From Ancylobacter moscoviensis (lineage in GTDB: Bacteria; Pseudomonadota; Alphaproteobacteria; Rhizobiales; Xanthobacteraceae), in NCBI RefSeq assembly GCF_007559435.1, contig NZ_VMBP01000002.1, forward strand, positions 186,001 through 250,000: DNA of 64,000 nucleotides, given 5' to 3'. Both the position numbers and the translations under genes were made by a program. Shown here piece by piece: positions 50,722 through 64,000 of this stretch. The notes under the pieces are model-generated. The model had not been told where the DNA came from. It searched no databases and was given only the letters and a program-made list of their open reading frames with translations. Each line of letters begins with the position of its first letter. Positions within the stretch are counted from its first letter, which is position 1.

Positions 50722-51087
50722 TCAGTGGCTGATCATCCACGGCCGGGCCGAGGGGAAGCTCTTGGCGCCGGAAGCGGTGGTGGCGGTGCGGTTCTTCTTC
50801 GTGCGGCTCTTCATGCCGGAGCAGCAGGAGCAGCCGGAGGCGTGCCTGGCGCGCTCCTGCTTGGCCTTGTAGGCGTCGACGCTCATCGGCGCGTGGCTCG
50901 ACTGCTCGTTGGTCGCGTGGGCGACCCTGCGTTCGCGCGACATGGAGGAGAAGTGCGGCGCGGTCAGCATCACGCGCGGTGCCATCGCGCCGCAATCCGG
51001 ACAGGGCTGAGGGTCCTGATACTCGCTCATCGGCCGCAGCTCGGTGAAATCGCCGCACGTGTCGCACTGATATTCATAGACGGGCAT
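50722..51087 (-). CDS. fmdB: FmdB-family zinc-ribbon protein
   Basis: A 121-residue small regulator of the FmdB type, first named from the formamidase locus of Methylophilus. The N-terminal zinc ribbon MPVYEYQCDTCGDFTELRPM ... PQPCPDCGA supplies two CxxC knuckles. A further CSCC lies near residue 95. The C-terminal WMISH matches alphaproteobacterial homologues. It follows fmdA on the same strand after three hairpin repeats. The actual role (regulator or maturation factor) is unresolved. Confidence 0.88.
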   Translation of the reverse strand: MPVYEYQCDTCGDFTELRPMSEYQDPQPCPDCGAMAPRVMLTAPHFSSMSRERRVAHATNEQSSHAPMSVDAYKAKQERARHASGCSCCSGMKSRTKKNRTATTASGAKSFPSARPWMISH

Positions 51088-51122
51088 GAGCGTTTCCTTG
51101 GGCGTTTCCACGACGGGGAAAG

Positions 51123-51234
51123 TGCGGGGCGACGCGAGCGTCGCCAAACCTCAGAAGGAAGAATGCGGGGCGACGCTTGGCGTCGCCAAATTCTCAGCAG
51201 GGAAGGATGCGGGGCGACGCAAGCGTCGCCCCGC
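51123..51234. repeat. three tandem palindromic repeats between fmdA and fmdB
   Basis: Copies at 51123-51144, 51165-51187 and 51209-51234 share GCGGGGCGACGC-(loop)-GCGTCGCC and a spacer TCAG-AGGAAG-like segment, repeating about every 43 bases. Each copy is a 7-8 bp palindrome (GGCGACGC / GCGTCGCC). All lie in the fmdA-fmdB intercistronic space. Confidence 0.85.
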
Positions 51235-51254: not shown

Positions 51255-52493
51255 TCAAAGGTCCGGCGAGATCGGCATGTCGACCGAGCCATCGATGAAC
51301 TTGGTCGGGCCGGCAGCCGAAGGCTTGATGTCGAAGTCGAAGATCTCGGTGGGCAGCCACAGCGTGGCGCAGGAATTGGGAATGTCGACCACGCCCGAGA
51401 GATGGCCCTGCACCGGCGCGACGCCGAGGATGGAGTGCGCCTGCGCGCCCGAATAGCCGAACTTCTTCAGGTATTCGATGGCGTTGAGGCACGCCTGACG
51501 ATAGGCGACGTTGGCGTCGAGATAGTACTGCTTGCCTTCCTCGTCGACCGAGATGCCCTCGAAGATCAGGTAGTCCTTGTAGTTCGGGGTGATCGGCGAC
51601 GGCTTGAAGATCGGGTTCTTGATCCCGTACAGCGCCATGCCGTCCTTGATCAGGTCGACCTTGATGTGCAGCCACGCGCCGAACATCTCGATGGCGCCGC
51701 AGAAGGTGATCTCGCCGTCGCCCTGGGAGAAGTGCATGTCGCCCATGGAGAGGCCGGCGCCGTCGACATAGACGGGGAAGTAGATCTTCGAGCCGCGCGA
51801 CAGGTCCTTGATGTCGCAATTGCCACCATGCTCGCGCGGGGGAACCGTGCGGGCGCCCTCGGCGGCGACCTTGGAATAGGCGTCCGAGCCCTTGGCGAGC
51901 TTGCCCAGATGCGCGGTCTTCGGCGCCGGCGGGTTGGCCAGCGGGGGCACGCGGGTCGGGTTGGTGTCGATCAGCGCCTGCTCGCGCGCGTTCCAGGTGT
52001 CGAGCAGCTTCTGCGAGGGCAGGGTGCCGATCAGGCCGGGATGGATGAGGCCGGCGAAGCCGACGCCCGGCACGTGGCGCGAGCGGGTGAACATGCCCTC
52101 GTAGTGCCAGATCGACTTCTGCGCGAGCGGGAAGTGTTCGGTGAGGAAGCCGCCGCCGTTCTTCTTCGAGAAGAAGCCGTTGAAGCCCCACTCATGGCCC
52201 TTCAGCGTGCCGGCGTCGAGGATGTCGACCACCAGCAGGTCGCCCGGCTTGGCGCCCTTCACGCCGATGGGGCCGGAGAGATAGTGCACCGTCGACAGGT
52301 CGACGTCGCGGATGTCGTCGGCGGAATCGTTGTTGGCGATGGCGCCGCCCGTCCAGTCCACGGTCTCGACGATGAAGTCGGCACCGGGCTCGACCCAGGT
52401 GGCGATCGGAATGTCCGGGTGCCAGCGATTGTGCAGATATTCGTTCTCGGTGGCCGGCTTGGACAGGTCGACCGAAATCAGTGTCTCAGGCAT
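51255..52493 (-). CDS. fmdA: formamidase / acetamidase family amidohydrolase
   Basis: A 412-residue enzyme that hydrolyses formamide, and in some members acetamide or other short amides, to the acid and ammonia. The start PETLISVDLSKPATENEYLHNRWHPDIP, the segment WVEPGADFIVETVDWTGG and GHEWGFNGFFSKKNGGGFLTEHFP are the family core. GDMHFSQGDGEITFCGAIEM and the end FIDGSVDMPISPDL close the fold. It lies 71 bases downstream of urtE and upstream of fmdB. Context supports amide breakdown after uptake. Confidence 0.95.
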   Translation of the reverse strand: MPETLISVDLSKPATENEYLHNRWHPDIPIATWVEPGADFIVETVDWTGGAIANNDSADDIRDVDLSTVHYLSGPIGVKGAKPGDLLVVDILDAGTLKGHEWGFNGFFSKKNGGGFLTEHFPLAQKSIWHYEGMFTRSRHVPGVGFAGLIHPGLIGTLPSQKLLDTWNAREQALIDTNPTRVPPLANPPAPKTAHLGKLAKGSDAYSKVAAEGARTVPPREHGGNCDIKDLSRGSKIYFPVYVDGAGLSMGDMHFSQGDGEITFCGAIEMFGAWLHIKVDLIKDGMALYGIKNPIFKPSPITPNYKDYLIFEGISVDEEGKQYYLDANVAYRQACLNAIEYLKKFGYSGAQAHSILGVAPVQGHLSGVVDIPNSCATLWLPTEIFDFDIKPSAAGPTKFIDGSVDMPISPDL

Positions 52494-52564: not shown

Positions 52565-53254
52565 TCAGACGGACAGGAACCGGGCGACCTTCGCCTCGTC
52601 GACGTCGGCGCGCTGGTTCTCGTGCACGATCTCGCCGTTCTCGATGACGAGCACGCGGTCGGCGATGTCGAGGGCGAAAGAGAGCACCTGCTCGGAGACC
52701 ACGATGGACAGGCCGCGCTCGTCGCGGATGCGCTTCAGCGTGCGCGCCATCTCGCGGATGATCGAGGGCTGAATGCCTTCGGTCGGTTCGTCGAGCAGCA
52801 GCACCTTGGGCGCGGTGGCGAGGGCGCGGGCGATGGCGAGCTGCTGCTGCTGGCCGCCGGAGAGGTTGCCGCCGCGCCGGCCCTTCATCTCCAGCAGCAC
52901 CGGAAACAGCTCGTAGATGTCCGGCGGCACCTTGCTCTCGCCGCGCGGGATGAGGCCGGTCTCGATGTTCTCCTGCACCGTCATGGTGGAGAAGATCATG
53001 CGGCCCTGCGGCACATAGGCGACGCCGTTGGCGACGCGCTCATAGCTCTTGAGCCGGGTGATGTCGGTCGGGCCGACAGAGACCGAGCCGCTCTTGGTCG
53101 GCACGATGCCCATGAGCGACTTCATGAGCGTGGTCTTGCCCATGCCGTTGCGGCCCATGATGGCGATGATCTCGTTGGGCGCGACGTTGAAGTTCAGCCC
53201 GTGCAGCACTTCGCTCTCGCCGTAGGAGACGTGGAGGTTCGAAACGTTCAGCAT
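52565..53254 (-). CDS. urtE: urea/short-chain-amide ABC transporter ATPase UrtE-type
   Basis: A 229-residue LivF-type ATPase. GRNGMGKTT (Walker A), NLSGGQQQQLAIARAL (signature) and LLLDEPTEGIQPSII (Walker B) are clear. It pairs with UrtD to power import through UrtB and UrtC. It is 10 bases downstream of urtD. The family handles urea or short amides such as formamide and acetamide (FmdDEF in Methylophilus); the neighbouring fmdA favours amides. Confidence 0.93.
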   Translation of the reverse strand: MLNVSNLHVSYGESEVLHGLNFNVAPNEIIAIMGRNGMGKTTLMKSLMGIVPTKSGSVSVGPTDITRLKSYERVANGVAYVPQGRMIFSTMTVQENIETGLIPRGESKVPPDIYELFPVLLEMKGRRGGNLSGGQQQQLAIARALATAPKVLLLDEPTEGIQPSIIREMARTLKRIRDERGLSIVVSEQVLSFALDIADRVLVIENGEIVHENQRADVDEAKVARFLSV

Positions 53255-53264
53255 CCTCGCCTCC

Positions 53265-54032
53265 TCAATGGCCGAGATAGACTTCGATGACCTTGGGGTC
53301 CGCCTGGACCTTGGCCATCGAGCCTTCCGACAGGATCTTGCCCTGGTGCAGCACCGTGACCTTGTGGGCGATGTCCTCGACGAACTTCATGTCGTGCTCG
53401 ATCACGATCACCGAGCGGTTCTTGATGATGGTGTTGAGCAGTTCGGCGGTCTTCTTGCGCTCGGACACGCTCATGCCGGCGACGGGCTCGTCGAGCATGA
53501 GGAGTTCCGGGTCCTGGATGAGCAGCATGCCGATCTCCAGCCACTGCTTCTGGCCGTGCGAGAGATATTCGGCGCGCTGGTCGAGCTGGTCGGCGAGGAA
53601 GATGGTCTCGGCGATCTCCTGCACCCGCTCCTTCACCGCGGCGTCGCGGCGAAAGGTGAGGGCGCCCGGCACCGAGCGGCCCTTGGGGTAGGAGATTTCC
53701 AGGTTCTCGAAGACGGTCAGGTCCTCGTAGATCGACGGGTTCTGGAACTTGCGCCCGACGCCGGCGCGCACGATCTCGTGCTCCTTCATCTTCGTCAGCT
53801 CGCGGTCCTTGAAGCGGATCGAGCCGGTGGTCGCCTTGGTGCGGCCGCAGATGAGATCGAGCACCGTCGTCTTGCCGGCGCCGTTGGGGCCGATGATCAC
53901 GCGGATCTCGTTCTCGTCGACATAGAAGGACAGGTCGTTGACCGCCTTGAAGCCGTCGAAGGAGACGGTCAGCCCTTCCACCGCCAGGACGAAGTCCTTG
54001 TTCATGGCATCGGTGATGACAGAGGTGTTCAT
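53265..54032 (-). CDS. urtD: urea/short-chain-amide ABC transporter ATPase UrtD-type
   Basis: A 255-residue LivG-type ATPase. Walker A is GPNGAGKTT. The signature segment reads LSHGQKQWLEIGMLL, with the UrtD-typical SHGQK in place of SGGQ. Walker B is LLMLDEPVAGMS. The ATG at 54032 begins NTSVITDAMNKDFVLAVEGL. It overlaps nothing and lies 15 bases after urtC. It forms the heterodimeric ATPase with UrtE. Confidence 0.93.
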   Translation of the reverse strand: MNTSVITDAMNKDFVLAVEGLTVSFDGFKAVNDLSFYVDENEIRVIIGPNGAGKTTVLDLICGRTKATTGSIRFKDRELTKMKEHEIVRAGVGRKFQNPSIYEDLTVFENLEISYPKGRSVPGALTFRRDAAVKERVQEIAETIFLADQLDQRAEYLSHGQKQWLEIGMLLIQDPELLMLDEPVAGMSVSERKKTAELLNTIIKNRSVIVIEHDMKFVEDIAHKVTVLHQGKILSEGSMAKVQADPKVIEVYLGH

Positions 54033-54046
54033 GGCACCGGCTCCTC

Positions 54047-55255
54047 TCACTCGGCGGCGGCGGGGGCGGCCGTCCCGGAGGGCGGCGCGGCGGGAGGCGT
54101 CGGAGTGGGCGGAGTGGCGGCCGGCGGCGTGGCGGCGGGAGGCGTCGCCGTGCGCTTGGCGGCGCCGCCGAACAGCGGGCCGAGATGCGGGGCGACGTAG
54201 GTCTGCCACAGGCCGGCGATGCCGTTCGGGAAGGCCAGCACCACGGCGATGAACAGGCCGCCGAGGCCGAACAGCCAGAGTTCCGGGAAGCTCTCCGAGA
54301 AGGAGGTCTTGGCCCAGTTCACCAGCAGCGTGCCGTAGACGGCTCCGAGGATGGACAGGCGCCCGCCGACGGCGGTGTAGATGACCATCTCGATGGAGGG
54401 CACGATGCCGACGAAGGAGGGCGACATGAAGCCGACCTGCAGCGTGAACATCGCCCCGCCGATGGCCGAGAGCGACGCGGCCAGGCAGAACACGAACACC
54501 TTGAAGCTGGCGACGTCGTAGCCGGAGAAGCGCACCCGGTCCTCCTTGTCGCGCATGGCGACGAGGATGCGGCCGAGCTTCGAGGACTTCACGAAATAGG
54601 CGACGAGGATGCAGGCCAGCAGCAGGCCGACGCACACGAAGTAGAGGACCGTCTTGGCGCTGTCGGTGCGGATGTCCCAGCCGTTCAGCGTGCGCAGGTC
54701 GGTGATGCCGTTGATGCCGCCGGTATAGCCTTGCTGACCGATGATCAGGATGGTCATGATCGCGGCGAGCGCCTGGGTGATGATGGCGAAGTACACGCCG
54801 CCCACGCGCCGCTTGAACATGGCGAAGCCGACGATGAAGGCGAAGAGGGCCGGCACCAGGATCACCGCGAGGGCGGTGAAGCCGAGATTGTGGAACGGCT
54901 CCCAGAACCAGGGCAGCGCGGTGATCTGGTTCCAGTCCATGAAGTCCGGAATGCCCGGCGTGGTCTGGATCTTGGTGTTCTCGACGCTGGAGGCTTCCAG
55001 CTTGAGGAACATCGCCATGCAGTAGCCGCCGAGCCCGAAGAACACGCCCTGGCCGAGCGAGAGAATGCCGGCATAGCCCCAGCACAGCACGAGGCCGAGC
55101 GCCACGAAGGCGTAGGTGAGGTACTTGCCGACGAACTGCAGGCGGAAATTGTCCAGCGCCAGCGGCAGGACGACGACGAGGACGAAGGCCAGGACGATGA
55201 TGCCGATGATGTCCTGAGGTCGCAGGAAGAAGGTGCGGCCGGATGATTTGCTCAT
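54047..55255 (-). CDS. urtC: urea/short-chain-amide ABC transporter permease UrtC-type
   Basis: A 402-residue LivM-type permease with about ten membrane helices (IIGIIVLAFVLVVVLPLAL to GLGGLFIAVVLAFPNGIAG). GLGGYCMAMFLKLEASS and GYTGGINGITDLRTLNGW are family segments. The C-terminal 35 residues are a Thr/Pro/Ala repeat (AATPPAATPPAATPPT and onward) not needed for transport and unusual in the family. It is 10 bases downstream of urtB. Confidence 0.92.
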   Translation of the reverse strand: MSKSSGRTFFLRPQDIIGIIVLAFVLVVVLPLALDNFRLQFVGKYLTYAFVALGLVLCWGYAGILSLGQGVFFGLGGYCMAMFLKLEASSVENTKIQTTPGIPDFMDWNQITALPWFWEPFHNLGFTALAVILVPALFAFIVGFAMFKRRVGGVYFAIITQALAAIMTILIIGQQGYTGGINGITDLRTLNGWDIRTDSAKTVLYFVCVGLLLACILVAYFVKSSKLGRILVAMRDKEDRVRFSGYDVASFKVFVFCLAASLSAIGGAMFTLQVGFMSPSFVGIVPSIEMVIYTAVGGRLSILGAVYGTLLVNWAKTSFSESFPELWLFGLGGLFIAVVLAFPNGIAGLWQTYVAPHLGPLFGGAAKRTATPPAATPPAATPPTPTPPAAPPSGTAAPAAAE

Positions 55256-55265
55256 GTGCGCCTCC

Positions 55266-56192
55266 TCAGCGACGGACCTTGATGACGAACAGGCCCTGGG
55301 GCCGCAGCATCAGGATGATGACCACGCCGAGCAGCGTGAGGACCTTGGCCATCGAGCCGGAGAGGAAGAACTCCAGGGTCGACTGGGCCTGCGAGATGGT
55401 GAAGGCGGAGGCGATGGTGCCGAGCAGGCTCTGCGCGCCGCCGAAGACGACGACCAGGAAGGTGTCGACGATGTAGAGCTGGCCGGAGGTCGGGCCGGTC
55501 GATCCGATCATGGTGAAGGCCGAGCCGGCGACGCCGGCGATGCCGCAGCCGAGGCCGAAGGTGTAGCGGTCCACCTTCTCGGTATTGATGCCGACGGCGC
55601 CGGCCATGACGCGGTTCTGCACCACGGCGCGGACCTGCTTGCCCCAGGCCGACTTGTACATCAGCAGGGCCACGGCGACGGTGATGGCGATGGTGAGGCC
55701 CATGACGAACAGGCCGTTGATCTGCACCTCGACCACGTCGGTGACGGGCAGCGATCCCATCATCCAGCCCGGCAGCTCGACGCCGACCTCGCGGGGGCCG
55801 AAAACGGAGCGATAGACCTGCTGGAGAATGAGGCTGAGGCCCCAGGTGGCGAGCAGAGTGTCGAGCGGGCGCTTGTAGAGGCGCCGGATCATCAGCCATT
55901 CCACCGCCATTCCGAGCGCGCCGGAGGCGAAGAAGGCCAATATCATCGCGATGAAGAAGTAGATGCCGAACAGGGCGGGAATATAATTCAGAAAGAACTG
56001 AGATGTGAAATAGGTGACATAGGCGCCGAGGATCATGAACTCGCCGTGCGCCATGTTGATGACGCCCATCTGGCCGAAGATGATGGCCAGACCCAGCGCC
56101 ATGAGCACGAAGACCGAAAACAGGATAAGGCCGGCGAAGCCTTGCATCAGGAAGATGGAGCTGAGTTCGCTCAGCGAATATTCGGCAAACAT
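55266..56192 (-). CDS. urtB: urea/short-chain-amide ABC transporter permease UrtB-type
   Basis: A 308-residue LivH-type permease with eight membrane helices. GQMGVINMAHGEFMILGAYV is the first conserved block. EWLMIRRLYKRPLDTLLATWGLSL and VVFGGAQSLLGTIASAF follow. Some UrtB proteins carry a large N-terminal extracytoplasmic domain; this one lacks it, resembling the amide-type permeases. It follows urtA across a strong hairpin. Confidence 0.93.
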   Translation of the reverse strand: MFAEYSLSELSSIFLMQGFAGLILFSVFVLMALGLAIIFGQMGVINMAHGEFMILGAYVTYFTSQFFLNYIPALFGIYFFIAMILAFFASGALGMAVEWLMIRRLYKRPLDTLLATWGLSLILQQVYRSVFGPREVGVELPGWMMGSLPVTDVVEVQINGLFVMGLTIAITVAVALLMYKSAWGKQVRAVVQNRVMAGAVGINTEKVDRYTFGLGCGIAGVAGSAFTMIGSTGPTSGQLYIVDTFLVVVFGGAQSLLGTIASAFTISQAQSTLEFFLSGSMAKVLTLLGVVIILMLRPQGLFVIKVRR

Positions 56193-56289: not shown

Positions 56290-57570
56290 TCACTGGTAGC
56301 CCTTCGGGAACGGATCGGGCTCGATGAGGTCGGCGGTCTCGTGAACCAGCTTGAACTGGCCGTCGGCCTGGGCCTGGCCGATACGGGCCTTGGACCACAG
56401 GTGATGGTTCGGGTGGATCTTGACGTAACCTTCCGGCGCCTTGGCGAACTCGACATCCACCGATGCTTCGGCAACCTTGTCCACGTCGAAGGACTTGGCC
56501 TTCTCCACCGCGGCTTTCCACAGCCAGGGGCCGAGATAGGCAGCCTGGGTGACGTCGCCGATCACCGTCTTGTCGCCCCACATCTTCTTGAATTCGGCGA
56601 CGAATTCCTTGTTGTTCGGGTTGTCGAGAGACTGGAAGTACTTCATCGAGGAGTAGGCGCCAGCGATGTTCTCGCCGCCGATGCCGTCGATCTCGTCCTC
56701 GGTCACCGATATGGTCAGCAGGTTCTGCTTGGAGAGGTCGATGCCGGCGGCCTTCAACTGCTTGTAGAACGCGACGTTCGAGCCGCCGACGACCGCGGCG
56801 TAGATCACGTCCGGCTTGGTCAGCTTGATCTTGTTGATCACCGAGTTGAACTGGGTGTGGCCGAGCGGGAAGTATTCCTCGCCCACGACCTTGCCACCCA
56901 GCTTGTTTTCGATGTGCTTGCGCGCGATCTTCATCGAGGTGCGCGGCCAGATGTAGTCCGAGCCGATCAGATAGAAGCTCTTGGCGCCCTTCTCCTTGTT
57001 GACCCAGTCGAGACCGGCGAGGATCTGCTGGGTTGCTTCCTGGCCGGTGTAGATGACGTTCTTGGACTGTTCGAGGCCCTCATAGAAGGTCGGGTAATAG
57101 AGAATGCCGTTATACTGCTCGAACACCGGCAGAACCGCCTTGCGCGAGGCCGAGGTCCAGCAGCCGAACACGGCAGCGACCTTGTCGTTGACGAGCAGCT
57201 TCTTGGCCTTTTCGGCGAAGGTCGGCCAGTCGGACGCGCCGTCTTCCTGAATGTACTTGATCTGACGGCCGAGTACGCCACCCGACTTGTTGATCTGGTC
57301 GATGGCGAGCTTCTCGGCCTGCACCGAGCCGGTTTCCGAAATCGCCATGGTGCCGGTGACGGAATGCAGGATGCCGACCGTGACGTCCGTGTCGGTGACA
57401 GCGAGGCCGGTGGTGTTCACGGCCGACGTCGCGAGCGCCTGGGCGAAGGCGGGCGAGGAAAACAGGCCGGAAGATGCCAGAAGAGGCGCCGCCGGAAGCG
57501 CCGCCATTCCCATCAGAAGCTTGCGGCGCGTGCTGGAAAACTTATGAGAATTATCGTTATTCGAAGACAT
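56290..57570 (-). CDS. urtA: urea/short-chain-amide ABC transporter substrate-binding protein UrtA-type
   Basis: A 426-residue periplasmic binding protein. The N-terminus has a Tat-like signal SSTRRKLLMGMAALPAAPLL ending at SPAFAQA. VGILHSVTGTMAISETGS opens the mature ligand fold. GCWTSASRKAVLPVFEQYNGILYYPTFYEG is the UrtA/FmdD-type ligand region. The end HNHHLWSKARIGQAQADGQF is typical of this family. It is the first gene of the operon, divergent from the hybrid sensor kinase. Ligand (urea or amide) is not settled by sequence. Confidence 0.94.
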   Translation of the reverse strand: MSSNNDNSHKFSSTRRKLLMGMAALPAAPLLASSGLFSSPAFAQALATSAVNTTGLAVTDTDVTVGILHSVTGTMAISETGSVQAEKLAIDQINKSGGVLGRQIKYIQEDGASDWPTFAEKAKKLLVNDKVAAVFGCWTSASRKAVLPVFEQYNGILYYPTFYEGLEQSKNVIYTGQEATQQILAGLDWVNKEKGAKSFYLIGSDYIWPRTSMKIARKHIENKLGGKVVGEEYFPLGHTQFNSVINKIKLTKPDVIYAAVVGGSNVAFYKQLKAAGIDLSKQNLLTISVTEDEIDGIGGENIAGAYSSMKYFQSLDNPNNKEFVAEFKKMWGDKTVIGDVTQAAYLGPWLWKAAVEKAKSFDVDKVAEASVDVEFAKAPEGYVKIHPNHHLWSKARIGQAQADGQFKLVHETADLIEPDPFPKGYQ

Positions 57571-57662
57571 GCGATCCCCTCCACGGGTTTGACGTGGCCT
57601 CAACAAGCTTAGCGATGTGCTTGCATTGTCAGGATCGTGGTCGGCGATGACGCGATGCAGCA

Positions 57663-57680
57663 ATACGTCGATTGACGTAT
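57663..57680. promoter_or_regulatory. perfect inverted repeat IR1, candidate operator
   Basis: ATACGTC-GATT-GACGTAT, 7-bp arms and 4-base centre, 93-110 bases upstream of the urtA ATG. The dyad size suits a LuxR-type response-regulator dimer such as the one encoded at 61437-62366. Confidence 0.6.
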
Positions 57681-57697
57681 AGGGGTTTCGGGGGCGC

Positions 57698-57720
57698 TCC
57701 TACACAGTGACGTCGTAGGA
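57698..57720. promoter_or_regulatory. inverted repeat IR2
   Basis: TCCTAC-N11-GTAGGA with an internal TGACGTC that shares TGACGT with IR1. Confidence 0.5.
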
Positions 57721-57771
57721 TGGGAGGCGCGTGTGCGCGCTTCCCACGTATGTTTTCGCGCGCGCGCGGAA
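57721..57771. promoter_or_regulatory. inverted repeats IR3 and IR4
   Basis: TGGGAGGCGCG-TGTG-CGCGCTTCCCA (57721-57746) forms an 11-bp stem with one G-T wobble. TTTTC-(GC)5G-GAAAA (57753-57772, approximate) follows. It has an alternating GC core that could adopt Z-form or bind a regulator. Confidence 0.5.
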
Positions 57772-58024
57772 AATAATTACTTTGGTATGCCGGTGTTACC
57801 GATGGACGTCCGCTGCCTGAATTGCGCTCATCTGGGCATTTTTTCATCGTCGGCACGCAAACGCCCGAACTTATACAAGAATCGTTTCGTGTCGTTTGGC
57901 CCGTTCGGTGCGCGGTCGACTTGACTGGAACGATTTGTGCTTGATGCACGCCGAGGCGCCGCGGGGGCGGGGCCGTTGGTGCAACGAAAACCAGAAAGTG
58001 CCCCGGGAGGGTAAGCGCGAAAGC

Positions 58025-61000
58025 ATGTCAGGCGTCGGCTCGGCGAGGCGGAACCCTATGGCGGCGGAACAAAAGATCGTTCGCGTTCGACGCCGTTACA
58101 ACCAGTGGGTCGTCAACGAGACGCTGGAAGACTATGCGCTGCGCTTCACGGCCAAGAGCGCGCGCCGCTGGTCGGCGCTGCGGGTGGCCAATACCGCGCT
58201 GGGGGCGGTGTCCTTCCTGGCGCTGGAGGCCATCGGCGGGGCCATCACGCTGGCCTACGGCTTCCAGAACGCGGTGGCGGCGATTCTCGTCGTGTGCGCC
58301 ATCATCTTCGCCGCCGGCCTGCCGATCAGCTATTACGCCGCCAAGTTCGGCGTCGATATCGACCTGCTGACCCGGGGCGCCGGCTTCGGTTATATCGGCT
58401 CCACTGTCACCTCGCTGATCTACGCCTCCTTCACCTATCTGTTCTTCGCCATCGAGGCGGCGATCATGGCGCTGGCGCTGGAGATGTGCTTCGGCGTGCC
58501 GCTGATGGTCGGCTATTTCATCAGCGCGCTGGTGGTGATCCCGCTGGTGACGCACGGCATCACCTTCATCAGCCGCTTCCAGCTCTGGACCCAGCCGGTC
58601 TGGCTGCTGCTGAACCTCATCCCCTTCGTCTTCATCTTCGCGCTCAAGGACGATCCGCTCGCCGGCTGGGTGTCCTATACCGGCCGCTACGGCGCGCCGG
58701 ACGGCTCCTTCGACTTCGTGCTGTTCGGGGCCGCCACCACGGTGGTCTTCGCGCTGGTGGCGCAGATCGGCGAGCAGGTGGACTTCCTGCGCTTCCTGCC
58801 GCGCCGCGCGCCGGGGCGCAGCGAGACGGCGCGCAATATGCTGTGGTGGGTGGCGCTGCTGAGCGCCGGGCCGGGCTGGATCATCCCCGGCGGCATCAAG
58901 ATGCTGGCCGGCTCCTTCCTCGCCTATTTCGCGCTCACGCAGGGCGTGCCTTTCCTGCACGCGGCCGAGCCGACCCAGATGTACCTGCTGGCGTTCAAGA
59001 CGGTCTTCACGCCGGAGGTGGCGCTGGCCTTCACCGGCGTCTTCGTCATCCTCGCCCAGCTCAAGATCAACGTGACGAACTCCTATGCGGGCTCGATCGC
59101 CTGGTCGAACTTCTTCTCCCGGCTCACCCACAGCCACCCCGGCCGGGTGGTCTGGCTGGTGTTCAACGTCACCATCGCGCTGATGCTGATGGCGCTCGGC
59201 ATCTACAAGGTGCTGGAGCAGATACTCGGCCTCTACGCCATCGTCGCGGTCGCCTGGGTGGCGGCGCTGGTGGCGGACCTCGTGGTCAACAAGCCGATGG
59301 GCTGGAGCCCGCCGGGAATCGAGTTCAAGCGGGCGCATCTCTACGACATCAACCCGGTGGGCGTCGGCGCGGTGCTGGCGGGCACGCTGATCGGCGTCAT
59401 CGCTTTCTCCGGCTTCTTCGGGCCGACGGTGAAGGTGTTCGCGCCCTTCGTGGCGCTGGGCGTGTCCTTCGTGGCGGCGGCGGGCATCGCCTTCGCCACG
59501 CAGGGCCGCTACTACATCGCCCGGCGCACCAACAAGAACTGGGACAGCCGCCACACGCTCAAGTGCTGCATCTGCGAACACAAGTTCGAGCCGGAGGACA
59601 TGGCGCATTGTCCGGTCTATGCCGGGCCGATCTGCTCGCTGTGCTGCTCGCTCGACGCGCGCTGCCATGACCGCTGCAAGGAGGATGCGCGCTTTCCCGA
59701 CCAGATACTGGCGGCCCTGCGCGCCACCCTGCCGACCTGGATGGTGGCGCAGATCAATTCGCGCATCGGCCATTACATCGGCGTGCTCTCGCTGCTGGCG
59801 CTGGTGATCGGCGGCATATTGGGCGTCATCTATTTCCAGGCGACCTTCGCACCGGCGGCCGAGCGCGAGGCGGTCGGCAGCGTGCTGTTCACGCTCTACT
59901 TCATCCTGCTCATCATCGCCGGCGTTGCCGCCTGGCTGTTCGTGCTGGCGCAGGAGAGCCGGCGCGTCGCGCAGGAGGAGAGCAACCGTCAGACCGCGCT
60001 GCTGATGCGCGAGATCGAGGCGCACAAGCGCACCGACGCCAAGCTGCAGAAGGCGAAGGAGGCGGCCGAGGCGGCGAACCTCGCCAAGAGCCGCTACGTC
60101 GTCGGCATCAGCCACGAGCTGCGCACGCCACTCAACGCTATCCTCGGCTACGCCCAGCTACTGGAGCGCGACACTTCCATCCCGCCCCACCGCCGCGACG
60201 CCATCCGGGTGGTCCGCCGCTCCGCCGAACACTTGTCCGGCCTCATCGACGGGCTGCTGGACATCTCCAAGATCGAGGCCGGGCGCCTGCACCTCACCCG
60301 CGACGAGGTGCGCATCGGCGACTTCCTCGACCAGCTCGTCGACATGTTCCGCCTTCAGGCGACCGCCAAGGGCATCGACTTCGTCTATGTGCGGCCCGAG
60401 CGGCTGCCGGCGGTGGTCTATACCGACGAAAAGCGCCTGCGGCAGATCCTCATCAACCTGCTATCCAATGCGATCAAGTTCACCAGTAGCGGACGGGTAG
60501 CGCTACGCGTTGGCTACAAGAGCCAGGTGGCCGAATTCGAGATCGAAGACAGCGGCATCGGCATTCCGGCGGCGGACCACAAGCGCATCTTCGAGCCCTT
60601 CGAACGGGGTGAGCGGGCGGGCACCTATTCGACCGCCGGCATCGGTCTCGGGTTGACCATCACCAAGCTGCTCACCGAGATCATGGGCGGGGAAATCTCT
60701 CTGTCCTCAACGCCTGGCGAGGGGAGCATCTTCCGCGTGAAGATGATGCTGTCGGAGGTGACCAACCCCTCCCGCCTCGGCCCGATCCAGCACCGCAACA
60801 TCGCCGGCTACACCGGCCCGCGCCGCACCGTGCTGGTCGCCGACGACGACGCCGCCCATCGCGACCTGATGCACGAACTGCTCGTTCCGCTCGGTTTCAC
60901 CGTGCTCGCCGCTACCGATGGGATACAGGCGCTCGACATGGTCCGCGAATGGACCCCCGATCTTTTGCTGCTCGACATTTCGATGCCGGGGCTTAGTGGC

Positions 61001-61447
61001 TGGGAGGTAGCGCGACAGTTGCGCGACGAGGGTTTCGCCAAGTTGCGCATCATCATGATCTCCGCCAATGCCGGGGAAATCCACGGCGACGGGCTTGCCC
61101 AGCATGACGATCATCTGGTGAAGCCGGTGCATCTGCGCACGCTGCTGGAGAAGATGGCGGCGCTGCTCGATCTCGAATGGGTCGGCGAGGCGGAACTCGT
61201 GGCGCGGGCGGTGGAGGAGGCGGTGCCGGCGGGTGCCCTGCGCGCGCCCTCGGGCGTCCATATCGACGATCTCGTGAAGCTCGGCGAGATCGGCTATGTG
61301 CGCGGAATCCAGGCCAAGCTGACCGAGATCGAGGGCGCCTCGCCCGACAACAAGGCGTTCGTCTCGCACATGCGCGACCTGATGGAAACCTTCGACCTGA
61401 AACAATACATGGCTGTCCTGGAGGCGTTGCGCAGCAATGATGCATAG
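58025..61447 (+). CDS. NCS1-permease-like hybrid sensor histidine kinase with receiver
   Basis: A 1140-residue membrane kinase. Residues about 20-500 are an NCS1 (purine/cytosine/allantoin permease) transporter fold with about 12 helices, starting FTAKSARRWSALRVANTALG. A Cys-rich module (C514, C515, C517, C529, C537, C540, C541, C547, C551) follows. Two more helices (about 580-640) and a coiled coil lead to the phospho-acceptor H697 in ISHELRTPLNAIL. NLLSNAIKF, DSGIGIP and GIGLGLTI are N, G1 and G2 boxes. A receiver with D984 (LLLLDISMPG) is fused. CbrA-type transporter-kinases are the known parallel. The ATG at 58058 is an alternative start. Confidence 0.92.
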   Translation: MSGVGSARRNPMAAEQKIVRVRRRYNQWVVNETLEDYALRFTAKSARRWSALRVANTALGAVSFLALEAIGGAITLAYGFQNAVAAILVVCAIIFAAGLPISYYAAKFGVDIDLLTRGAGFGYIGSTVTSLIYASFTYLFFAIEAAIMALALEMCFGVPLMVGYFISALVVIPLVTHGITFISRFQLWTQPVWLLLNLIPFVFIFALKDDPLAGWVSYTGRYGAPDGSFDFVLFGAATTVVFALVAQIGEQVDFLRFLPRRAPGRSETARNMLWWVALLSAGPGWIIPGGIKMLAGSFLAYFALTQGVPFLHAAEPTQMYLLAFKTVFTPEVALAFTGVFVILAQLKINVTNSYAGSIAWSNFFSRLTHSHPGRVVWLVFNVTIALMLMALGIYKVLEQILGLYAIVAVAWVAALVADLVVNKPMGWSPPGIEFKRAHLYDINPVGVGAVLAGTLIGVIAFSGFFGPTVKVFAPFVALGVSFVAAAGIAFATQGRYYIARRTNKNWDSRHTLKCCICEHKFEPEDMAHCPVYAGPICSLCCSLDARCHDRCKEDARFPDQILAALRATLPTWMVAQINSRIGHYIGVLSLLALVIGGILGVIYFQATFAPAAEREAVGSVLFTLYFILLIIAGVAAWLFVLAQESRRVAQEESNRQTALLMREIEAHKRTDAKLQKAKEAAEAANLAKSRYVVGISHELRTPLNAILGYAQLLERDTSIPPHRRDAIRVVRRSAEHLSGLIDGLLDISKIEAGRLHLTRDEVRIGDFLDQLVDMFRLQATAKGIDFVYVRPERLPAVVYTDEKRLRQILINLLSNAIKFTSSGRVALRVGYKSQVAEFEIEDSGIGIPAADHKRIFEPFERGERAGTYSTAGIGLGLTITKLLTEIMGGEISLSSTPGEGSIFRVKMMLSEVTNPSRLGPIQHRNIAGYTGPRRTVLVADDDAAHRDLMHELLVPLGFTVLAATDGIQALDMVREWTPDLLLLDISMPGLSGWEVARQLRDEGFAKLRIIMISANAGEIHGDGLAQHDDHLVKPVHLRTLLEKMAALLDLEWVGEAELVARAVEEAVPAGALRAPSGVHIDDLVKLGEIGYVRGIQAKLTEIEGASPDNKAFVSHMRDLMETFDLKQYMAVLEALRSNDA

Positions 61448-62366
61448 CGTGGAGCGCCGAGACATCGTCCTCGTGGTGGACGATTCGCCGGAGACCCTCA
61501 GTCTCCTCACCGATGCGCTGGAGGCGGCCGGCGCCACGGTACTGGTCGCGGTGGAGGGGGCCAACGCCCTCGCTCTCGTCGAGCGCATCACCCCGGACGT
61601 GATCCTGATGGACGCGGTCATGCCCGGCATGGACGGCTTCGAGACCTGCCGCCTGCTGAAGCGCAACAAGTCGGTCGCCCATGTGCCGGTGATCTTCATG
61701 ACCGGCCTGTCGGAGACCGAACAGATCGTGAAGGGGCTGGAGGCGGGCGGCGTCGACTATGTGACGAAGCCGATCTCGCCGGACGAGCTGATCGCCCGCA
61801 TCCGGGTGCATCTCGCCAATGCGCGCCAGACCCACAGTGCCCGGGCGGCGCTCGACGCGGCGGGCCGCTACCTGCTCTCCGCGACGCGCGAGGGGAAGGT
61901 GTTGTGGTCGACGCCGCAGGCGACGGCGCTGCTGACCTCGATCACCGTCTCGCCGCCTGGCGACAGCCTGGTGCTGCCGGAGCCTGTGCAGCGCTGGCTG
62001 GAGGGGCGCAAGGGCGAGGCCGTCTCGGCGCCGGATACCATCGAGCTCCCGGTGGAGGGCACGCCGCGCCGGCTCAAGCTCTCCTATGTCGGCCAGATTG
62101 GCCCCGAGGAACTGCTGCTGCGCATCGTCGAGGACGAGGGGCTGTCGCCCGAGCAGGTGCTGAAAGCCAAGCTCAACCTTACCGTGCGTGAGGCGGAGGT
62201 CCTGATGTGGCTGGCACGGGGCAAGGCGAACCGCGACATCGGCGAGATCCTCGGCCTCTCACCGCGCACGGTGAACAAGCATCTGGAGCAGGTCTACGCC
62301 AAGATCGGCGTGGAGAACCGCGCGGCTGCGACCGCGCTGGCGGTGACGGCGCTCACCTCGAAATAG
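61437..62366 (+). CDS. LuxR-type response regulator with central PAS-like segment
   Basis: A 309-residue regulator overlapping the hybrid kinase by 11 bases. Receiver: VLVVDDSPE, phospho-acceptor D59 (VILMDAVMPG) and K111 (YVTKPISP). Residues about 140-235 resemble a PAS-like domain (AALDAAGRYLLSATREGKVL, then STPQATALL) that is rare between receiver and HTH. The LuxR HTH spans about 245-305 (LTVREAEVLMWLARGKANRD and LGLSPRTVNKHLEQVYAKI). It is the obvious partner of the kinase and the likely binder of the inverted repeats upstream of urtA. Confidence 0.92.
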   Translation: MMHSVERRDIVLVVDDSPETLSLLTDALEAAGATVLVAVEGANALALVERITPDVILMDAVMPGMDGFETCRLLKRNKSVAHVPVIFMTGLSETEQIVKGLEAGGVDYVTKPISPDELIARIRVHLANARQTHSARAALDAAGRYLLSATREGKVLWSTPQATALLTSITVSPPGDSLVLPEPVQRWLEGRKGEAVSAPDTIELPVEGTPRRLKLSYVGQIGPEELLLRIVEDEGLSPEQVLKAKLNLTVREAEVLMWLARGKANRDIGEILGLSPRTVNKHLEQVYAKIGVENRAAATALAVTALTSK

Positions 62367-62615: not shown

Positions 62616-62951
62616 ATGAAGATGACGATTCGGAAACGTGTTCTGGTGGGGTGTGCTGGCCTCCTGGCGGGGACTGTTTTGCTGGGCAGCCTGGCCGTTG
62701 CGCAGCCGCGCTGGGCAGGCAGCGATCTGCAGGGGGCAGTCGACCGCACCTGCATTGTGGAGATCGGCGCCTCGGCTGGCCGGCTCGAACTGCAGAACCT
62801 CTGCTACAACCCCAGGGCGGTGCGCATCAGCTGGGGCGACGGGCGCTTCGTCGACTATTGCTTCAACAGCAGCGGTGATGTGCGCTTCGTGGCCAAGCTG
62901 TCCGACAGCTACCGGCTCGTGCGCGAGCAGGACATTCTGCTCTGCCAGTGA
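62616..62951 (+). CDS. small exported protein of unknown function
   Basis: A 111-residue product with a Sec signal peptide (RKRVLVGCAGLLAGTVLLGS ending LAVAQ). The mature 80 residues contain four Cys (RTCIVEIG, LQNLCYNP, VDYCFNSS, ILLCQ), suggesting two disulfides. RISWGDGRFVDYCFN and VRFVAKLSDSYRLV look like beta strands. No family is recognised. The 110 bases upstream are strikingly A/T-rich against the genome background. Confidence 0.65.
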   Translation: MKMTIRKRVLVGCAGLLAGTVLLGSLAVAQPRWAGSDLQGAVDRTCIVEIGASAGRLELQNLCYNPRAVRISWGDGRFVDYCFNSSGDVRFVAKLSDSYRLVREQDILLCQ

Positions 62952-63035: not shown

Positions 63036-63455
63036 TCAGTCCGCCGGGCCCTCGCCGGTCGGGACGAGCCGATCGAGCTCGTCATCGGTGAAGAGACGAG
63101 AGCGGGTGAGAAACCGCACGTCGCGCCCGTTCTCGAGGCTGAACATGCCGCCGCGTCCTGGCACGACATCGATGATCAGCTGGGTGTGCTTCCAGTAATC
63201 GAACTGCGACGGGCTCATGTAGAACGGCGCGCCGCCGATCTCGCCCATCCGCACGTCTCGATCGCCGACGATGTAGTCGCCCTGCGGGTAGCACATGGGC
63301 GAGGAGCCGTCGCAGCAGCCGCCGGACTGATGGAACAGCAGCGGGCCGTAATCGGCGGTGAGCGTGGCGATCAGCTTCAGCGCCGCGTCGGTCGCGAGAA
63401 CACGGGGAACGGTGCCGATGGCAGCGTGGGGATCGGCCGTGATGACGTCGGTCAT
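63036..63455 (-). CDS. DUF779 domain-containing protein
   Basis: A 139-residue protein of the DUF779 family, usually encoded beside aldehyde or alcohol dehydrogenases. LTADYGPLLFHQSGGCCDGSSPMCYP carries the conserved Cys cluster. IGGAPFYMSPSQFDYWKHTQLIIDVVPGRGG is the other signature block. The ATG at 63455 has GGGAGGACCCC upstream. It is downstream of an alcohol dehydrogenase gene on the same strand, which fits the family's context. Its biochemical role is unknown. Confidence 0.9.
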   Translation of the reverse strand: MTDVITADPHAAIGTVPRVLATDAALKLIATLTADYGPLLFHQSGGCCDGSSPMCYPQGDYIVGDRDVRMGEIGGAPFYMSPSQFDYWKHTQLIIDVVPGRGGMFSLENGRDVRFLTRSRLFTDDELDRLVPTGEGPAD

Positions 63456-63608
63456 GGGGTCCTCCCGGGAGGCGCCGCGCCGCCGGGTATCCCGGCGTTT
63501 CGGCATATGGCGGTTGGGCCGTTCTGATGCGGCCTTGTGCTTGCGAAGATGTGCCGCGCCGTCCCGGTGATCAAGGCCGGAAGGCGCGGCACGCTTTCGT
63601 TCCGCCGG

Positions 63609-64000
63609 TCAGGCGGCGATGTCGAGCACGATGCGGCCGTCGATCTTGCCGGCATGCATGCGCGCGAAGATGTCGTTGATGTCTTCGAGCTTGCCCCGCT
63701 CGACGGTAGCCTGAACCTTGCCGTCGGCAGCGAAGTCGAGCGACTCCTGCAGGTCCAGCCGCGTGCCGACGATGGAGCCGCGCACCGTGGTGCCGTTCAG
63801 CACCATGTCGAAGATCGGCAGCTCGAAGGCGCCGGGCGGCAGCCCGTTCGCCACCAGCGTGCCGCCACGGCGCATCATGCCGAGCGCCTGCTCGAAGGCC
63901 TTGGGCGAGACGGCGGTGACGAGCACTCCATGGGCGCCGCCGATTTCCTTCTTCAGCACCGCGACCGGATCCTGCTCGCGCACATTGACGGTGATGCTGG
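63609..64000 (-). CDS. adhP: zinc-dependent alcohol dehydrogenase, C-terminal part (cut by right edge)
   Basis: The last about 129 residues of a medium-chain alcohol dehydrogenase of the AdhP type. Segments DPVAVLKKEIGGAHGVLVTAVSPKAFEQA, LVANGLPPGAFELPIFDMVLNGTTVRGSIVGTRLDLQESLDFAADGKVQ and FARMHAGKIDGRIVLDI are typical. The Rossmann and catalytic zinc parts lie beyond the window. It converts primary alcohols to aldehydes with NAD. It is upstream of the DUF779 gene. Confidence 0.9.
   Translation of the reverse strand, partial: SITVNVREQDPVAVLKKEIGGAHGVLVTAVSPKAFEQALGMMRRGGTLVANGLPPGAFELPIFDMVLNGTTVRGSIVGTRLDLQESLDFAADGKVQATVERGKLEDINDIFARMHAGKIDGRIVLDIAA

Follow-up and report, generated by a model that had tools for sequence, protein, structure and literature searches.

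A permease-kinase fusion beside a urea/amide uptake operon

The stretch of DNA analysed here, referred to as the window, comprises 64,000 nucleotides of the Ancylobacter moscoviensis genome (contig NZ_VMBP01000002.1, positions 186,001 to 250,000). It contains an intact frame of 1140 amino acids (aa) on the + strand, from an ATG at 58025 to a TAG stop at 61445-61447, in which a permease-like membrane part is followed by a histidine kinase and a receiver. We refer to this protein as the sensor, in anticipation of its proposed function. It is accompanied by a response regulator gene on the same strand, and the pair is divergent from the urtABCDE-fmdAB operon. The elements of the sensor-regulator pair are as follows.

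58025..61447, + strand: fusion of NCS1-type permease, eight-cysteine domain, histidine kinase and receiver, 1140 aa (start may be 58058)
58082..59524, + strand: NCS1-like permease domain, residues ~20-500, about 12 hydrophobic helices (hhalign with controls, hydropathy)
59564..59677, + strand: cysteine domain, residues 514-551 (eight Cys conserved in the alignment)
59771..59947, + strand: two further hydrophobic helices, residues ~583-605 and ~618-641, between the cysteine domain and the kinase (hydropathy)
60086..60283, + strand: HisKA, residues 688-753, phospho-acceptor His697 (PF00512, 64.9 bits)
60422..60748, + strand: HATPase_c, residues 800-908, with N815 and D842 (PF02518, 93.0 bits)
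60830..61153, + strand: receiver domain, residues 936-1043, phospho-acceptor Asp984, Lys1033 (PF00072, 69.3 bits)
61437..62366, + strand: LuxR-type response regulator with receiver and helix-turn-helix domains, 309 aa (PF00072, 102 bits; PF00196, 62.7 bits)

HisKA, HATPase_c and Response_reg of the sensor all exceed the Pfam cut-off. H697, N815, D842, D984 and K1033 are invariant in all 59 relatives compared, and D940 in 58 of them; judged by these domains and catalytic residues, the sensor is a hybrid histidine kinase. The initial annotation had described a single 1140-residue polypeptide with an NCS1-type permease, a kinase and a receiver, and this description holds, given the intact frame, the Pfam matches of the kinase and receiver, and an hhalign score of 98.9% to NCS1 for the membrane part. 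The cysteine domain, the two further hydrophobic helices and the overlapping regulator gene did not figure in that annotation. An alternative start, the ATG at 58058 (Met12), is invariant in 20 of 20 aligned rows, and the residues ahead of it are unconserved; the gene may begin there instead of at 58025. Helices were placed by hydropathy averaged over 61 sequences. About 60 residues C-terminal of the receiver (window 61247-61423, + strand) are also kept in the family and carry the motif LGEIGYVRGIQAKL, without a Pfam family.

The regulator gene begins inside the 3' end of the kinase gene (61437 versus 61447). Loci (numbered with the prefix L) were gathered by the kinase alone, independently of its neighbours. 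In 80 of the 82 loci the regulator is the same-strand downstream neighbour of the kinase gene (78 of 80 once the duplicates L138 and L148 are removed); in L106, L109, L111 and L113 it had been overlooked by the gene caller and was detected by tblastn. The exceptions are L128 and L129, which hold paralogues (L128:7998-10655 and L129:8162-10846, - strand) in a same-genus and a same-order genome. These paralogues keep the permease and the cysteine domain, have a kinase end without a receiver, and adjoin an fmdA gene (66-68% identical) and a separate signalling gene, which in L128 is a receiver-plus-ATPase gene located after the paralogue.

The membrane part is a divergent NCS1 permease domain

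Curated family models do not recognise the N-terminal part of the sensor. No Pfam family exceeds the cut-off over residues 1-680, none of the N-termini of 18 family members matched PF02133 (Transp_cyt_pur) at E<=10, and residues 1-510 of the window protein have no NCBIfam match at E<=10; the NCBIfam CodB 'cytosine permease' model matches 6 of 18 relatives (best E 1.4e-7), the window protein not being among those matched. Sequence searches of the PDB with family profiles returned no NCS1 structure. Profile comparison gave a different result. With hhalign, 18 relatives aligned with seven proteins that exceed the PF02133 cut-off at 97.0% (E 1.2e-10, 383 columns), and adding Mhp1, CodB and the standalone protein L066 to the NCS1 side raised this to 98.9% (E 2.4e-17, 384 columns); against Mhp1 and CodB only, the value was 90.9% (E 1.2e-6). 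The controls remained at background, with 0.8% and 0.7% for SLC5/SSF, 0.3% for UrtB, 0.2% for UrtC and 0.2% for reversed NCS1. In the sensor, VDFLRF lines up with a D-x-x-R-F motif found in annotated NCS1 proteins.

A direct link comes from L066, the one standalone protein matched (E 8e-8) when 385 genomes of the host's class were searched with sensor residues 1-562. Pfam scores L066 as Transp_cyt_pur (36.7 bits, over the PF02133 cut-off), and in a two-sequence BLASTP comparison it is 24% identical to window residues 23-424 over 427 columns (E 6e-11). Its frame is L066:1492-2916 (+ strand), it shares with the sensor a Lys-x-x-x-x-Asn pattern in transmembrane helix 8 (TM8), and its genomic context contained no informative neighbours. 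Taken together, the alignments indicate that the N-terminal part of the sensor is a divergent NCS1 permease domain missed by the curated family models. The initial reading of the N-terminal half as NCS1, which a lack of NCS1 similarity over residues 20-500 would have overturned, is thus borne out by profile comparison (383-384 columns), whereas the curated Pfam and NCBIfam models do not return it for the window protein.

Three other views of the membrane part were rejected. An SLC5 origin is contradicted by the SSF profile, which reached only 0.8% and 0.7%. The silence of Pfam was set aside as a disproof of NCS1 ancestry because profile comparison and BLASTP tie the family to NCS1. A recent fusion of permease and kinase was discarded because the nearest standalone permease, L066, the sole match in the 385 genomes, is only 24% identical, whereas fusions of full length turn up repeatedly in the phylum sample.

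Residues of the permease site and the cysteine domain

The 98.9% hhalign alignment was used to map residues of Mhp1 onto the sensor. Mhp1 N318, which we take to be the ligand-binding Asn, aligns with sensor N352, an Asn in 61 of 61 rows, and Mhp1 Q121 aligns with E144, a Glu in all 61. S312/T313, presumably the Na-site pair in TM8, align with L346/K347; the second position is Lys in 61 of 61 rows, and the Na-site Ser/Thr is not kept, so Na coupling is unlikely. W117 and W220, assumed here to be the aromatic pair that clamps hydantoin, correspond to F140 (Phe in 48 of 57, Leu in 9 of 57) and to a variable position, mostly Val, Ala, Leu, Ile or Gly. L066 carries Lys at the position aligned with K347; the change to Lys is therefore older than the fusion, or shared. 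The charged permease-domain residues E68, E144, E250, D253, K292 and K347 are invariant over 59 relatives. Read cautiously, the alignment suggests a ligand site that is kept, a ring clamp that is changed and a fixed positive charge at the Na site. Conservation of the permease substrate residues, a point raised by the initial annotation, appears partial: the presumed ligand Asn remains, the presumed Na-site Ser/Thr is Lys, and the aromatic clamp is altered.

Between the permease and the kinase, eight Cys residues (C514, C517, C529, C537, C540, C541, C547 and C551) are each present in 61 of 61 rows, including the paralogues L128 and L129, and they probably form a zinc-binding module. A profile of this domain run over 299 genomes gave 42 matches, all in frames of 894-1247 aa at places of the sensor family, in a search that scored at most 20 candidates per genome and from which weak relatives elsewhere can escape. 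The permease-kinase interval has no Pfam match above the cut-off, in a comparison made without a STAC profile; below the cut-off, a weak DUF6526 match at 584-667 is seen in 18 of 20 sensor-family members (best E 0.0028).

Conserved linkage to urea and amide genes

On the other side of the divergent region lie genes for uptake and hydrolysis, all on the - strand.

56290..57570, - strand: urtA, substrate-binding protein; open reading frame open to 57663, likely ATG 57570 behind GGAGGGG (TIGR03407, 554 bits)
55266..56192, - strand: urtB (TIGR03409, 392.6 bits)
54047..55255, - strand: urtC (TIGR03408, 444.8 bits)
53265..54047, - strand: urtD (TIGR03411, 384.5 bits)
52565..53254, - strand: urtE (TIGR03410, 333 bits)
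51255..52493, - strand: fmdA, formamidase (NF045496, 728.4 bits)
50722..51147, - strand: fmdB, zinc-ribbon protein (TIGR02605, 54.4 bits; NF053663, 151.8 bits)

The amide/urea importer that had been noted beside the fusion is thus present as urtABCDE, followed by fmdA (NF045496) and fmdB. We examined neighbours in a set of 60 loci (L014-L019 and L093-L148 minus the duplicates L138 and L148), some of which share a genome or are closely related; 20 other loci from L001-L026, mostly Ancylobacter, stand outside this set. Gene clusters were named from one representative each. Genes for urt, fmdA, amidase or urease occur within ~10 kb on either side in 58 of the 60 loci. A urt operon close to that of the window (urtA at least 55% identical) is found in 35 loci, and fmdA likewise in 35; another 14 loci have a different urt (urtA 36-43% identical), for which the sample L143 matched the UrtA and UrtB NCBIfam models over the cut-off. 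Aliphatic amidase is present in 11 loci and urease genes in 10. A urt operon adjoining a formamidase has been suggested to import formamide (PMC13209695, available portion), which fits the formamidase-linked context of the sensor.

A candidate operator in the divergent region

The region between urtA and the sensor gene contains a palindrome.

57663..57680, no strand assigned: palindrome ATACGTCGATTGACGTAT, candidate operator, 93 bp upstream of the likely urtA ATG 57570

Of the gapped palindromes in 65 divergent urtA-sensor regions, ATACG-N8-CGTAT is the most frequent: 40 regions have it, compared with 2-3 for the best word in each of three shuffles. The extended form ATACGTC-N4-GACGTAT is matched exactly in 26 of 65 regions and with at most two mismatches in 49, versus 0.05 of 65 in shuffles; once 20 loci of the Ancylobacter group, the window and a duplicate are removed, 27 of 43 regions have it. 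Its half-sites covary, ATACGTC pairing with GACGTAT and ATACGCA with TGCGTAT (GTC/GAC, GCA/TGC). The host genome has a single exact copy, the one at window 57663-57680.

Over the whole 60 loci, the looser word TACGY-N6-RCGTA gave 46 matches versus 1.6 in shuffles, and 37 of the 46 are located near urtA, a porin-like gene, the sensor pair, fmdA or urease genes. Outside the divergent gap, the motif lies at a distance of 96-112 bp ahead of urtA in L097, L100 and L124, where urtA sits apart from the kinase, of fmdA in L096 and L102, and of the porin-like gene that heads the urt operon in L143 and L144. In a fresh test on records unused in motif discovery, the Sinorhizobium meliloti pSymB and a Klebsiella pneumoniae plasmid had one copy each between urtA and the sensor, and an Azospirillum record without urt had no copy. 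A sigma-70 promoter scan of 57500-58100 found none. The same divergent region contains, upstream of the sensor gene, an 11-pair hairpin followed by CGTATGTTTT (window 57721-57746, + strand), terminator-like or a leader element; two such structures were found versus 0.9 expected.

Proposed function and alternative explanations

Because relatives of the sensor adjoin urea/amide uptake genes, often with a common DNA motif, we propose that it is probably an NCS1-permease-derived sensor of urea or short amides that, together with the LuxR-type regulator, governs the neighbouring operon for uptake and hydrolysis. The ligand of the permease domain would be urea or a short amide such as formamide, bound without the usual Na-coupled uptake; binding would shift the conformation of the domain, and the cysteine module and the two added helices would relay this change to the kinase. 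His697 would then be autophosphorylated and the phosphate transferred to Asp984 of the fused receiver, to the partner regulator, or to both; the phosphorylated regulator would bind ATACGTC-N4-GACGTAT and switch on urtABCDE-fmdAB. In relatives, the pair would drive adjacent urt or urease operons. The ligand, the direction of control, the phosphotransfer route, the binding of zinc and the loss of transport are what we infer in this scheme. At the level of gene order, the linkage of kinase, regulator, putative target and operator-like site that would underlie two-component control of urea/amide uptake is conserved, except for the operator-like site in urease-only loci. The initial suggestion of a sensor for the nitrogen source handled by the adjacent importer is therefore backed, albeit not proven, by linkage in 58 of 60 loci and by the operator-like palindrome between urtA and the sensor.

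A broader proposal, possible but somewhat doubtful, is that the family represents a new transceptor class across Pseudomonadota, in which an NCS1 permease minus Na-coupled transport became a dedicated urea/short-amide receptor, coupled to the kinase via an eight-cysteine, probably zinc-binding, relay module. If true, the transceptor would supply the inducer sensing that has been missing for urt-urease and urt-formamidase operons.

Several observations weigh against urea/amide sensing. Two of the 60 loci, L140 and L146, are without urt, fmdA, amidase or urease neighbours, and the plasmid copy of Azospirillum lipoferum likewise lacks urt, amide or urease neighbours. At up to two mismatches the motif occurs at three places in the host genome versus four for a backwards control, so that only the exact copy stands out; nine of the 46 TACGY-N6-RCGTA matches lie elsewhere than near the genes named above, and the word was not found in 24 of the 60 loci. 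These include every one of the seven urease-only loci, a case that the model fails to cover. The TM8 register of the Mhp1 alignment could shift by one. No permease position reaches 85% in both formamidase-linked and urea-linked members with different letters; as no position separates the two groups, the ligand is unreadable from sequence, and the attempt to derive it from such residues was rejected; the two labels need 6 changes on a quick tree of 61 rows without bootstrap. This pattern suggests one common signal or a lenient site, and the ligand may be one common signal or no amide at all.

The latter point would fit a kinase that senses another cue (for instance overall nitrogen status, pH, a nucleobase, a ureide, or zinc via the cysteine domain) and merely co-regulates amide/urea use, an explanation that we consider rather unlikely. 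One signal common to formamidase- and urea-linked members agrees with it, as do the eight Cys found in 61 of 61 rows and the fact that NCS1 relatives transport nucleobases, hydantoin or allantoin. However, the linkage is to specific uptake and hydrolysis genes, and with Phe/Leu and mostly Val, Ala, Leu, Ile or Gly at the places of the presumed Mhp1 aromatic pair, a small ligand fits better than a ring. Reducing the permease to a vestigial membrane anchor, with sensing by the cysteine domain or by partners such as UrtA, appears highly improbable: that Pfam and NCBIfam do not recognise window residues 1-510 as NCS1 would agree with it, but the six invariant charged residues of the permease domain would be needless for a mere anchor.

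A working transporter that reports flux, the alternative offered in the initial annotation, is also conceivable: ligand import through the permease would continue, and the kinase would monitor the transport cycle. We judge this unlikely. The permease has kept its full length and N352, the counterpart of the presumed ligand Asn, but Lys347 at the presumed Na-site Ser/Thr argues against ordinary Na-coupled transport, and an ATP-binding cassette (ABC) importer is already encoded next door. Proton coupling would be compatible with such transport, since the standalone NCS1 protein L066 has the same aligned Lys. A reading of the transport cycle has been proposed for CbrA, whose SLC5 domain is described as a functional histidine transporter (PMC13022988, available portion).

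Relation to known systems and distribution

Known transporter-kinase fusions include the SLC5/STAC kinases CbrA and CrbS (PMC13022988, PMC9100948, PMC5715377); CrbS, like RpuS, is a hybrid kinase partnered by a LuxR-family regulator, and CrbR requires an inverted repeat in target promoters (PMC9100948, PMC5715377), according to the accessible parts of these reports. The sensor resembles CbrA, CrbS and RpuS in joining a transporter domain to a kinase. It differs in that its permease is NCS1 rather than SLC5 (hhalign 98.9% versus at most 0.8%), its linker comprises an eight-Cys domain plus two helices at the place that STAC and PAS occupy in those kinases, and its neighbours indicate nitrogen compounds instead of acetate, pyruvate or histidine. 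The parallel with CbrA drawn initially is therefore useful as a working analogue and fails as a family assignment, the permease family being different and the linker a cysteine domain. Another analogue is Ks-Amt5, an Amt-histidine kinase of an anammox bacterium that binds its ligand without efficient translocation (PMC5764959). Both would be nitrogen-compound transporters turned into sensors with a fused kinase, but Ks-Amt5 has an Amt domain where the sensor has NCS1, and the portion of its description available mentions neither a cysteine domain nor a fused receiver. With Mhp1 and CodB the sensor can be aligned as a profile over 384 columns and keeps the Mhp1 TM8 Asn; unlike them it has Lys at the Na-site Ser/Thr, a changed aromatic clamp and a fused kinase.

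Similar gene pairs have been listed by others. Table 4 of a study of Dechloromonas aromatica gives 'Histidine kinase 1131 aa / Che-Y like receiver 308 aa' beside UrtA, without function (PMC2907700; VIMSS583663, 583664, 583666). This pair resembles the sensor and regulator by size and position, is likened here by description only, and is presented in the available part of that source with no mention of a permease domain. Ectopseudomonas guguanensis G3 has a LuxR-type regulator and a hybrid kinase beside urt operon III, by annotation only (PMC13296017); by description alone, as far as the accessible text goes, this is the same gene set. No description of an NCS1-kinase sensor was found in the literature searched, which was mostly non-subscription, and database labels in the rows inspected were 'ATP-binding protein', 'response regulator', 'hybrid sensor histidine kinase/response regulator', 'ArcB' or none. 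As far as these searches show, the sensor family is widespread and unstudied.

The family is present in 26 of 385 sampled genomes of the host's class (27 matches minus L066, and counting L065, a fragment) and in 53 of 398 sampled genomes of the phylum (E<=1e-150), the host genome being included in both counts. It also occurs on 506 of 72,556 plasmid records, 338 from Klebsiella and 77 from Sinorhizobium. The pSymB of Sinorhizobium meliloti 1021 carries a copy of the sensor with the regulator and a urt operon. An IncFIB plasmid of Klebsiella pneumoniae has the sensor, the regulator, urt and an annotated formamidase, to which tblastn with the window fmdA gave no match; in L150, a K. pneumoniae plasmid (61863-85186 of NZ_OM489434.1), insertion sequences flank a segment with the sensor, the regulator, urtABCDE and an annotated formamidase. 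Among 5,426 Escherichia coli genomes, the Klebsiella version of the sensor is found at a level of at least 80% in 4 and partially in 2. The family is common, whereas transporters turned receptors are reported to be rare in bacteria (PMC13022988, accessible part). It provides a testable explanation of how numerous bacteria of soil and plants could sense formamide or urea, a main fertiliser, and comes with a candidate operator and with a copy on pSymB of the model strain S. meliloti 1021.

Two minor observations concern other genes. L083 (a 952-aa part of a 1171-aa frame, in genome G757), a PAS-containing histidine kinase from the same bacterial family as the host, has a weak SLC5 match (PF00474, 23.1 bits), which is unlisted when the 952-aa part is scanned; it is perhaps an SLC5-kinase. 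In the window, the regulator gene is followed by a small protein without a Pfam match (62616-62951, + strand) and a DUF779 gene (63036-63506, - strand), adjoined by a zinc-type dehydrogenase at 63609-63998.

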